The notes under the pieces were generated by a model. That model was not told the DNA's origin. It saw nothing but the letters and a program-made list of their open reading frames with translations, and ran no database searches. From Methylophaga thalassica MP (lineage in GTDB: Bacteria; Pseudomonadota; Gammaproteobacteria; Nitrosococcales; Methylophagaceae), in contig NZ_AFIG01000001.1 of NCBI RefSeq assembly GCF_000214595.1, positions 1,468,382-1,532,381 of the forward strand: DNA of 64,000 nucleotides, written 5' to 3'. The position numbers and the translations under genes are program-made. Every line of letters starts with the position of its first letter. Positions within the stretch are counted from its first letter, which is position 1. Positions 22,884 through 52,359 of this stretch are shown here, one piece after another.

Positions 22884-23043
22884 GAACATAGCTTGAAAGT
22901 TGATCTGAATATTTATTTTTCATTTCGAAGCATTACCATCAGTAGCTCGTCCTGTTTGTTAATAAGTACTCTGCACACTTCCAGCTATACCAAAAAGTCT
23001 CAATTTGGGACTTCAATTATTTATTAAGAAATTAGGATTATTT

Positions 23044-23250
23044 ATGTCTACAACTACTGGTACTGTTAAATGGTTTAACGAAGCTAAAGGTTTTGGTTTT
23101 ATTGAACAAGAGTCTGGCCCAGACGTTTTTGCTCATTTCAGCCAAATCAAAGGTGACGGTTTCAGAACCCTGAATGAAGGTCAACGTGTTGAGTTCACTG
23201 TAACTCAAGGTGCTAAAGGCCCTCAAGCAGAAAACATTACTGCTCTGTAA
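23044..23250 (+). CDS. Cold-shock domain protein (CspA family)
   Basis: A 68-residue single cold-shock domain binding single-stranded RNA/DNA. RNP1 is KGFGFIE and RNP2 VFAHF; WFN and the C-terminal GPQAENI are conserved. The frame is open upstream to 23005, but the ATG at 23044 gives the standard N-terminus ([12 protein letters not shown]). The long leader suggests post-transcriptional control by temperature, as known for cspA. A strong terminator follows. Confidence 0.95.
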
Positions 23251-23273
23251 GACATTTGTTTACAGAAAAGAAG

Positions 23274-23304
23274 AAAAGCCTCGTTTTTACGAGGCTTTTT
23301 TTTT
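23274..23304 (+). terminator. Rho-independent terminator of the cold-shock gene
   Basis: A 10-bp stem AAAAGCCTCG / CGAGGCTTTT with a 6-nt loop and a run of T. It may also act for the convergent SDR gene because of the A run on its left side. Confidence 0.93.
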
Positions 23305-49469: not shown

Positions 49470-49881
49470 AACCCAGGACTTTTAATGAGTCATTCACCTT
49501 ATCAGCCTCAATATAGCCGATTGCATTAGAATCTTTTTCTAACCACTTTATCATCTCATCATCACTGACTTCTTTAGGTAAAGCAAATCGACCAGAAAAT
49601 AAGAGTCGGGCGCGGTAGGAATTGATTTCATTGAGTGTTTTATTAACCAGATTTTGATAAAAATCTCTTCTCGCTGGAGACGCAATCTCCTGATCTAGTA
49701 ACACTATTCTCTGTCCGGTCGAATAAAATTTTGTCCGCCCCATAAAAATATCAACAATCTGCTGCTTACTCAGCGCGGCTAGTGGATTATTTTTATTTGC
49801 GACCACAGCAATCTCTCCTGAGGCCGCTAAGGATGGCACCAGCGATAAACACAATATTGCTAATACTAATATCGTCTTCAT
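49459..49881 (-). CDS. Small PstS-like periplasmic binding protein
   Basis: A 140-residue protein with a signal peptide (cleavage near LAA, about residue 20). The sequence VVANKNNPLAALSKQQIVDIFMG, interrupted by RTKFYSTG, and the end SNAIGYIEADKV resemble phosphate-binding-like domains, but only half the usual length is present. Transport is unlikely because no permease is near. It overlaps both neighbours (porin stop/ATG as TGATG, and the cyclase), indicating a ligand-sensing unit. Confidence 0.82.
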   Translation of the reverse strand: MKTILVLAILCLSLVPSLAASGEIAVVANKNNPLAALSKQQIVDIFMGRTKFYSTGQRIVLLDQEIASPARRDFYQNLVNKTLNEINSYRARLLFSGRFALPKEVSDDEMIKWLEKDSNAIGYIEADKVNDSLKVLGYVD

Positions 49882-51140
49882 CAGAATATAAAATCCACGG
49901 TCAGACTGAATACGTTAAAAATATGCTGTTTATCTATTTGGTTTTTTTGTTCAAAGATAAAGTCGCCATACTTCTCAACCCAAGTACGATCCCATTGCGC
50001 TTTTAATGAAACCGTTTGCGAAACATCCCAACGAGCGCCGATACCAAGCGTACTTTGGTCAGCATAAATGCCATTTGACGCAGCCTGAGCGATTGATTGT
50101 AATCGTTGATATGATGTAATGAATGCAGGTGCAGGTGGTATGGTTTCTCGACTACCCAGCGTGGTAAATTTACTGACAATAAAATAGGGTGTCACAGCAC
50201 CAAACCGATGCCCCACACTCAAATAAGCTGAAGCATATTTATCATGCGTACTTGTTTCTGCCTTAACGACGCTCAATTCACTTTGAACAAGCCAGTCGTC
50301 TTTATCATAGCTGAGTCCCGCGGTAACGTATCTCAGCCAGGTATCATTAATCGAAAAACCCGCGATAGAAGCCGCTTCAGGCCAGCCAAACTTGGATGCT
50401 TGTATTAACGCATCGTCAAATGCAGCGGCAGGATCGTCTTTGTCATTAATTCTGGCTTGTGAGTAAAGAAGTCTTAATAACCAGGTCTGATTTTCCCAGC
50501 GCAGCCCTGCCCCAAAGTTCGGCTCAAACTTTATCTTTTTTGCCTCACCATTACTGTCATAAGGAAAGTTGCTTCGACCCGCCCATACAGACGAGGTCAA
50601 CACACCATCTCCTAATCTGAGGTGATGGCTTAATTTTGCGCCATCGTAGGATTCACCCGCTAGCTGGCCATAAAACGCGACGGGTAAATGTGTCCATAAA
50701 CGAGCAAAACCAACATTTTTATATTCTGATGACATAAAGACATCATTCGGTAAACGACCCAACCCAATTTCAAAACGATTATCAAAATGATAGGTAAAAA
50801 AGGCTGATTTAAGGGTGTTGTTAAATGACTGCTCAGGTCTGTCTATAAAAACAAATTGTGTGGTGAAATTTAACTGCTGGTTGAAAATGTAATCAATTTG
50901 CAGGCCAAGGTTAGACTCGGTTGCTGAATCAAATCCATGCCCACTGCCCTCTTGTTCGATGGAGTTGCGATAGAGAATATTATCGCTGTCATTGTAGATG
51001 AGGCCTAATGTGCCGTAACCATTCACAGACAAGCCCTCAATACCCGTATCTAAGGCCTCACATCGAAATGGTAACGTCAATAACAATCCGATTAATAAAA
51101 AACTGTGTTTAACATTTAGCAAGCCAACACCCACGCTCAT
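49881..51140 (-). CDS. Outer-membrane porin-like protein
   Basis: About 419 residues from the ATG at 51140; a start at 51179 is also open. A hydrophobic signal (about residues 12-28) precedes a beta-rich part with many aromatic strand ends and a terminal Phe (LTVDFIF), as in barrel proteins. Specific substrate unknown. It is the first gene of a coupled operon with a binding protein and a diguanylate cyclase. Confidence 0.75.
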   Translation of the reverse strand: MSVGVGLLNVKHSFLLIGLLLTLPFRCEALDTGIEGLSVNGYGTLGLIYNDSDNILYRNSIEQEGSGHGFDSATESNLGLQIDYIFNQQLNFTTQFVFIDRPEQSFNNTLKSAFFTYHFDNRFEIGLGRLPNDVFMSSEYKNVGFARLWTHLPVAFYGQLAGESYDGAKLSHHLRLGDGVLTSSVWAGRSNFPYDSNGEAKKIKFEPNFGAGLRWENQTWLLRLLYSQARINDKDDPAAAFDDALIQASKFGWPEAASIAGFSINDTWLRYVTAGLSYDKDDWLVQSELSVVKAETSTHDKYASAYLSVGHRFGAVTPYFIVSKFTTLGSRETIPPAPAFITSYQRLQSIAQAASNGIYADQSTLGIGARWDVSQTVSLKAQWDRTWVEKYGDFIFEQKNQIDKQHIFNVFSLTVDFIF

Positions 51141-51219
51141 GACAAAATCCACATGGATTATATAGATATTTTCCTGCATTTTGTTGTTCTTAAATGAATT
51201 ATCCCCCTTTATTCAGGCG

Positions 51220-51698
51220 TTTCGCACTTACTCACAGTTTCTGTGGAAAACAATGTGGATAACTTTCTGGTAAATCTGTAAGTGATTCTTTTACGACAAA
51301 CTTTACATGATGGTTAATTTTTAACCATTGCAAAAAAAGCGTGAAGATTGTTGATATACCTACATCTATAAAATTCATAAATCTCATCGTCAATCTAAAG
51401 TTTTATTCACTTTACTCACAAAAACGGTGGATAAGCATGTGGATAAGTTTCTGGTAAAGCTGTAAGTGACTCTTTTATGACAAGCTTTATGACATGGTTA
51501 AATTTTAACCAAGAGCCAGTTTTCGGATGATGAGAGAAAAGACAAAAGCTTTATGAATGATACGAAGATAATTATCTCGAATAATTTATACACATTACCC
51601 ACAATTTCAGTGGATAAGCATGTGGATAAGTTTCTGGTAAATCTGTAAGTGACTCTTTTCTGACGAGCTTTAAATGGTGGTCAATATTTAACCACTGC
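51220..51698. repeat. Three tandem modules with DnaA-box clusters (origin-like or DnaA-titration locus)
   Basis: A gene-free stretch with three imperfect copies starting at 51220, 51403 and 51586. Each begins with a TTATNCACA-like site and TTACYCACA, then two facing GTGGATAA-type sites, ending in TGTGGATAA (51254, 51438, 51621). A nearly invariant 29-nt core (51264-51292, 51448-51476, 51631-51659) follows, then the palindrome TGGTTAA-N3-TTAACCA (51311-51327, 51495-51511, 51678-51694; one mismatch in the third). The 70-75 nt between modules are not conserved. TTATACACA (51586) and the three TGTGGATAA are perfect DnaA boxes. Confidence 0.85.
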
Positions 51699-51749
51699 TA
51701 TCGAATAAAAGCTTGACAAACCCTGTAAAGCAGACAAAAAAAGACAAGA

Positions 51750-52253
51750 TCAAACTGTCAACAAGGCCTTTTCACGACCCAATAAAATTTGTTTACGTTC
51801 TACACCCCATCGATAGCCTGACAGCGTGCCGTTTTTATTAACAATCCGATGACAAGGTACCAGCAAAGCCAATGAATTTGCGGCACAAGCATTGGCGACA
51901 GCTCTCACAGCCGAGGGTTTTCCCAGCATGTTTGCCAGCTCGGTATAGGTTCTGGTTTGCCCAACAGGAACTTGCTGTAAGGTCATCCATACTGATTTTT
52001 GAAACGTCGTTCCTTCCATTTCAATCGGTAAATCTAACTCACCTTTTGGTGACTCGATATAGTTTAATATCCGGATTAAATAGCTGGTTAGTAAAGTATC
52101 ATTTTGCTGTTGTTTTGCATGTGGATATTTTTCTTGGAGATGCTCAACCAAAAGGTCGGGGTCATCAGCCAATGCAACAAAGCATATAGCTCTGTTATTT
52201 CTAGCCACCAGTAGACAACCTAGGCTGGAAATCCCTAATTCATAAAACACCAT
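51750..52253 (-). CDS. ogt: Methylated-DNA-protein-cysteine methyltransferase
   Basis: A 167-residue suicide repair enzyme moving alkyl groups from O6-methylguanine to its own cysteine. The active site is VPCHRIV (Cys134), with the helix-turn-helix QVPVGQTRTYTELA and GYRWG. The ATG at 52253 has GGGAGGA upstream; the frame is open to 52286. It follows the single-domain Ogt/Ada-C type. DNA alkylation defence is plausible for a cell that makes C1 intermediates. Confidence 0.92.
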   Translation of the reverse strand: MVFYELGISSLGCLLVARNNRAICFVALADDPDLLVEHLQEKYPHAKQQQNDTLLTSYLIRILNYIESPKGELDLPIEMEGTTFQKSVWMTLQQVPVGQTRTYTELANMLGKPSAVRAVANACAANSLALLVPCHRIVNKNGTLSGYRWGVERKQILLGREKALLTV

Positions 52254-52359
52254 GAACTTGTCCTCCCTACTGAATGCATTTTTCATATACCATATAAACG
52301 ATTGAACTTAATCGTATTCAAAACTGCCAAAAGTTAATTGAATACTGAGGAGTAAACCA

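Follow-up and report, generated by a model that had tools for sequence, protein, structure and literature searches.

The closest described counterparts of the locus considered here are the two DnaA-reactivating sequences (DARS) of Escherichia coli, which recharge the initiator protein DnaA for a further round of replication and of which DARS1 lies in the intergenic region between bioD and uvrB and DARS2 near mutH. In the portions of the literature available to us, DARS1 and DARS2 are described as sharing equal box spacing with box I opposing boxes II and III, and as sitting between oriC and terC (PMC5742627); boxes I and II, facing each other, lead to a head-to-head interaction of ADP-DnaA (PMC8682772). 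Residues R227 and L290 of DnaA have been tied to DARS activity (PMC4245941) and D269 to that of DARS1 (PMC5742627), and the position and dosage of DARS matter in E. coli (PMC5010248). DARS2 is conserved in seven E. coli relatives (PMC8682772), and conserved sequences resembling DARS1 and DARS2 are known already from many species of proteobacteria (PMC10380432). In the part of the literature that was searched, DARS have been studied in E. coli and homologues noted in other proteobacteria; neither a DARS in tandem triplicate nor a Methylophaga DARS nor a core-Fis-IHF layout is described there, the founding DARS paper and a possible earlier account of the flank lying outside it and "triplicated" not being a search word.

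The locus that we compare with these systems lies in a 64-kb stretch of a 3.26-Mb Methylophaga genome in three contigs (G000:C3:1468382-1532381, hereafter the window, whose positions we use). At 51228-51694 are three direct tandem modules with a start-to-start period of 184 and then 183 bp, in agreement with a preliminary description of a module triplicated at about 183 bp. They are intergenic, between two ORFs on the minus strand, one of which (49881-51179) encodes a porin-like beta-barrel with a Pfam match under the family cut-off and the other (51750-52286) an O6-methylguanine DNA methyltransferase, called ogt here. Repeat alignment, a core-pattern scan and counts of Fis and IHF offsets place the modules, from box I through the end of a palindrome, at 51228..51327, 51412..51511 and 51595..51694 on the plus strand; the conserved unit begins at about 51226, so that the locus was correctly located in the preliminary description while its start at 51220 needs correction. 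Over the 110 nt compared, identity to module 2 is 76% for module 1 and 84% for module 3. Every module has the order of elements first reported, namely one or more forward boxes, two reverse boxes, a 29-nt conserved core on the plus strand (51264..51292, 51448..51476 and 51631..51659) and a TGGTTAA/TTAACCA-like palindrome, and each 29-nt core contains TAAGT (51279-51283, at +52 from box I, in module 1; 51463-51467 and 51646-51650 in modules 2 and 3). A search of the whole genome with the DNA of the locus found this one place only, a plasmid search with the locus gave no match, and nothing at the locus reached Rfam gathering scores; elsewhere in the window, 22993-23303 is a cspA thermoregulator RNA (RF01766, 84 bits). 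The gene dnaA is on the same contig at G000:C3:149525, 1.37 Mb from the locus, as expected from the statement that it is not nearby.

The four perfect DnaA boxes previously counted in the locus are there (exact TTATNCACA at 51254, 51438, 51586 and 51621), and the roughly eight near matches become seven further 9-mers at one mismatch, giving eleven with at most one mismatch in 0.5 kb. Taken alone, the total of seven exact boxes in the 64-kb window is weak evidence, 3.5 being expected and 7 of 100 shuffles reaching it. Rather, it is the arrangement that is significant: in all three modules, a forward box I is followed by reverse boxes II and III at start-to-start distances of 14 and 12 bp, and this tight pattern, with three mismatches allowed, has three matches in the window versus none in 100 shuffles. 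The cores so defined, named on the plus strand, are 51228..51262 (box I 51228-51236, II 51242-51250, III 51254-51262), 51412..51446 (51412-51420, 51426-51434, 51438-51446) and 51595..51629 (51595-51603, 51609-51617, 51621-51629). Additional forward boxes abut box I on its upstream side in module 2 (51403..51411, one mismatch) and module 3 (51586..51594, exact).

Box orientation and the 14/12 spacing are identical in E. coli K-12 DARS1 (L089, 2108/2122/2134) and DARS2 (L088, 1636/1650/1662). A looser scan for this geometry, with at most five mismatches in total, returned the three module sites in the window (1, 2 and 2 mismatches) and, in E. coli, both DARS plus a weak second set near DARS2. 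It returned none in the E. coli datA or oriC regions, in the stretch with a candidate oriC of a related genome (G022) or in the dnaA region of G000, and gave 0, 0, 2, 0, 0, 0, 0 and 0 matches in eight simulated 64-kb windows. The second E. coli set (L088 1952-1986; 3, 0 and 2 mismatches) is 0.3 kb from the DARS2 core, and in its flank it departs from the class profile described below, its score there being reached by 2030 of 5000 shuffles.

The palindrome, which had been left unexplained, now fits a Fis consensus. The 15-mers at 51312..51326, 51496..51510 and 51679..51693 match both GnnYAnnnnnTRnnC and a stricter consensus, which we scored in what we take to be its usual form. Because this stricter consensus is loose, with 23 matches in the 64-kb window, it is the constant offset of +85 in all three modules that carries weight in predicting Fis binding there. 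The more general consensus is that given in the available text of PMC4245941. The palindrome could instead serve some other dimeric protein. Only one weak IHF-like 13-mer was found at one mismatch in 51181-51760, past module 3 on the minus strand (51706..51718). Overlapping it at 51712-51719 is CTTGACAA, which recurs there and shortly after the single or last module in several loci of the type A described next.

A strict core expression, which misses degenerate copies, picked out 94 distinct modules in the loci examined; 15 of these carry TAAGTG.YTCTTTT (type A), and the remaining 79 we call type B. Type A modules all adjoin ogt and have an exact Fis consensus at +85 (15/15); none has a forward IHF consensus (at most one mismatch, +100 to +135), and two have a reverse one, module 3 of the window being one of them. 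Among type B modules, 77 of 79 match Fis with at most one mismatch, 62 of them exactly, and 65 have a forward IHF match, mostly at +120 or +121; the clpA and ttcA modules of the window's own genome match the IHF consensus exactly. A fourth box abutting box I upstream (at most one mismatch) occurs in 9 of the 15 type A and 3 of the 79 type B modules. A Fis homologue at G000:C3:118299 is 48% identical to E. coli Fis, the Fis search gave a match in all ten genomes searched, and the genome has Hda (TIGR03420, 255 bits) and a DnaA in which R227, L290 and D269 are conserved and which shares 245 of 377 aligned residues with a fragment of E. coli DnaA (residue 78 onward).

Further modules in the same genome are found at C3:874215 (clpA/cobO), C3:2080740 (ttcA/glyoxalase-like) and, in degenerate form, C2:125305, these neighbours being what we take the genes to be from their translations. 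A sequence model, R1, built with the flank included from 31 modules, among them the window's three and none from E. coli, matches 55 of 57 Methylophagaceae genomes and detects both E. coli cores, at 20.8 and 15.7 bits. An exact-pattern scan of contigs found 67 stretches, 48 of them titled Methylophaga and others, for example, Sulfuriferula and Pelagibacterium MAGs. Three module neighbourhoods recur, namely ttcA/glyoxalase (often with two modules), clpA/cobO and ogt; a minority, among them the stretches L113, L134, L146, L154 and L208, have none of the neighbour genes queried. In L134 and L146, from MAGs labelled Proteobacteria and Sulfuriferula, there is an exact match to the core plus TAAGT with no query gene adjoining.

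The ogt site holds the triple in at least five genomes (G000, G079, G013, G008 and G022) and a single module in at least five (G003, G005, G006, G014 and G015), both counts being minima because loci were taken for best matches only. Thus a search of related genomes with attention to synteny, as suggested in the preliminary description, found the modules conserved. On the far side of the single-copy sites is gdhPQQ in four of five, G015 having no query gene there, and in the triple genomes porin occupies the side where the single-copy relatives have gdhPQQ. Across species, identity between copies at corresponding positions is 85-94% (99-100% between G008 and G022, which have nearly the same sequence), a range that overlaps the 79-89% identity of copies within one genome. 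Despite this overlap, the common spacing, order and gene context suggest that the triplication probably predates these species. In four triple genomes, 85, 88 and 85% of the positions in the modules are invariant versus 51 and 35% in the linkers, as would be expected on the view that selection maintains the modules. A separate cluster, on G026:C16, is a local spread of DARS modules, with five similar copies on one strand in about 6 kb between unrelated ORFs (L210 1657-7884); a sixth module of different make lies about 11 kb beyond the five (L211 2341-2441).

Beyond the family, R1 matches 237 of 321 gammaproteobacterial genomes, three of them from the window's own family. Because R1 includes the flank, and is hence biased, we used a core-only pattern, which matches 156 of 369 genomes of the class versus zero in control columns; it finds no match in the window's own genome or three other family members drawn, as their box I differs (TTACTCACA or TTACCCACA in the own genome). 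Applied to a phylum-wide draw, the core-only pattern finds matches in 8 of the 51 genomes that belong to the class and in 13 of the 149 from other classes, and the latter rule out that the geometry is strictly gammaproteobacterial. Judged by these patterns, then, the DARS core is neither universal in Gammaproteobacteria nor confined to them. Within the class, the share in this draw (8 of 51) is much lower than in the class draw (156 of 369), so that core frequency varies with the sample, and for this reason we speak of many Gammaproteobacteria and not of most. Several genomes of the class sample (G242, G349, G198, G293, G366 and G102) have several DARS cores each, and all of these except G102 also have tandem core pairs about 340-600 bp apart. 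When 20 other loci were picked for high R1 score, 16 had no overlap with ATG-initiated ORFs of at least 100 aa.

The flanks of these cores were compared in 40 hand-picked loci, one per genome and chosen by stepping down the listed matches, which comprise 41 cores from 33 families other than the window's own by their handles, a few of them related; the alignment, free of gaps, was anchored on box I. Positions downstream of the cores are conserved as well: T38 G39, AAAGCC at about 54-59, a Fis-like stretch that begins with G87 and ends with C101, and, at about 120-133, an IHF-like AAATCA..TT. Upstream, conservation averages 0.09 bits and peaks at 0.49. Counting matches, not rows, with at most one mismatch over the 41 cores, the Fis consensus has 31 at offsets 86-88, 11 of them exact, and forward IHF has 25 at offsets 120-123, while in the 100 nt upstream no offset exceeds 3 for Fis or 1 for IHF. 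Leave-one-out z scores range from 0.7 to 8.3, and 7 of the 41 are below 2, a poor fit. Against 5000 shuffles each, which preserve base composition only, E. coli DARS1 scores above all of them (z 4.1, positions 36-134) and the own-genome clpA module, with a 1-nt gap placed by hand, is reached by none, while the flank of E. coli DARS2 is reached by 460. The flanks of the window's modules are reached by 32, 2 and 15 of 5000, a moderate fit that is obtained only with a 2-nt gap placed by hand to bring the Fis site into register.

It may be that many Gammaproteobacteria share one DARS design of about 134 bp, consisting of the core, a TAAG-like element at about +54, a Fis site at about +87 and an IHF site at about +121, although we are evenly divided on whether this is so. 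E. coli DARS1 would then be a decayed version, DARS2 a rearranged one and the Methylophaga triple an IHF-free one, and copy number together with the accessory sites retained would set the strength and timing of recharging.

Clustered DnaA boxes are also what a replication origin would offer, and a secondary origin had been proposed, but we think it very improbable that the locus is either a secondary or the main one. GC skew sampled over the genome G000 stays below zero across the whole window (-0.07 to -0.03) as well as in its neighbours (-0.07 at 1.44 Mb, -0.01 at 1.56 Mb), with neither the minimum that an origin would lead one to look for nor any switch at the locus; the sampled switches are at 0.26-0.48 Mb (minus to plus) and 1.22-1.32 Mb (plus to minus). 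A dif-like site with three mismatches, at 1191005, lies just ahead of the latter, and such sites, scored against a 24-mer that we take to represent dif, were found in seven of nine genomes. In G022, which has the same triple, the 20-kb stretch around it has a near-zero skew (-0.006; halves -0.023 and +0.010) that might favour an origin, but the stretches to either side (190 kb and 310 kb) have skews of -0.060 and -0.083 and the triple's own stretch has an excess of forward genes, so we read this value as local noise. The minus-to-plus switch of that genome is at 1.42-1.44 Mb, away from the triple, and coincides with three exact boxes at 1438734-1438776, the sole group of three consensus boxes within 500 bp among the stretches scanned. 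This site (L285 18680-18960; G022:C1, about 1438.7 kb), about 218 kb from dnaA and flanked by what are presumably dihydrofolate-reductase-like and PriA-like ORFs according to their translations, is likely the oriC of that Methylophaga. The triple is about 1.20 Mb from it along an arm that measures about 1.59 Mb, which places it 76% of the way toward the dif-like site, and so lies between the oriC candidate and dif as expected for DARS; the ttcA module is at 41% of the same arm and the clpA module at 79% of the other. Dispersed copies of the module within one genome likewise speak against an origin.

Two other readings deserve more weight. DnaA and Fis also act as transcription factors, and a distance of 49 bp separates the beginning of module 1 from the start of the ORF, at 51179, as might be expected of a DnaA/Fis-controlled promoter region for the porin-PBP-GGDEF operon. 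However, all five single-copy relatives have their module by ogt, with gdhPQQ opposite in four and no porin match in the stretches examined, and no sigma-70-like site was found on the minus strand; the numbers of predicted sigma-70 promoters and terminators at the locus (3 and 0) are not above those of shuffles. The proposed control of a porin-cyclase operon thus seems quite unlikely as the main function, although a double role, as DARS and in operon control, is possible. Slightly less unlikely is a passive, datA- or DBC-like cluster that merely soaks up DnaA, for which the eleven 9-mers within one mismatch of the DnaA box in 0.5 kb speak; DARS boxes have themselves been counted among DnaA-titrating sites, in the available text of PMC12371093. 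Titration, though, calls for a number of boxes and would not require a constant 14/12 geometry that recurs in each module together with a Fis-like site in register, and the E. coli datA region does not have this geometry. In contrast to the origin and the operon promoter, the mention of DARS among the known loci to which the modules were first likened has held up.

We therefore consider it quite likely, judging from the exact core geometry, the Fis-consensus palindrome in register and the conservation of both modules and setting, that the locus is a triplicated DARS of a Methylophaga species. If it works as in E. coli, ADP-DnaA would assemble on each core, bound head to head at boxes I and II with support from box III; the pair so formed would release ADP, and apo-DnaA would depart and bind ATP. 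Fis may aid the assembly or reshaping of the DnaA complex, which would couple recharging to growth, and three copies would provide greater local recharging capacity. Lacking the +120 IHF site of other Methylophaga modules, the locus probably depends less on IHF timed by the cell cycle and may supply ATP-DnaA more steadily, as is thought for E. coli DARS1, while the IHF-bearing single modules might act in timed bursts like DARS2. The triplication is not accounted for by low gene dosage, since single-copy relatives are equally near dif: G014 and G005 have their modules about 246 and 242 kb from the dif-like site versus about 329 and 386 kb for the triples of G000 and G022, which weakens compensation for dosage at the terminus as its cause.

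Fixed positions of Fis and IHF sites beside the core in distant Gammaproteobacteria would give DARS a general definition. Such a common layout would also provide an explanation for the flank of DARS1, which is poorly understood, and make DARS findable in other genomes. In addition, loci that by nature carry one, two or three modules, some with an IHF site and some lacking it, let the need for DnaA recharging and its timing by accessory proteins be probed.

Among the known systems, datA is like the locus in being a non-coding cluster of DnaA boxes that acts on the nucleotide state of DnaA, according to the text available of PMC5742627, but it lacks the 14/12 core geometry and is described as IHF-dependent (PMC4585315, in part); its box layout differs from that of our locus, where no forward IHF site is found at one mismatch. 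DARS2 is closer, as the core geometry is shared and DARS2 is controlled by Fis (PMC4245941, in part), for which the triplicated locus has predicted sites. Yet DARS2 needs IHF, for which the triplicated locus has no forward site, and its order is core, IHF-like sites (+94 and +110) and Fis (+146), unlike the core and Fis (+85) of the triplicated modules, and it does not fit the class layout. DARS1 does fit that layout, with AAGC (55-58) and AATTGG (83-88) at the positions of the class consensus; it differs in being a single copy instead of three and in having no Fis-consensus match at one mismatch near +87. Its function, in the available text of PMC4585315, needs no protein factor, which parallels the missing IHF site of the triplicated locus.
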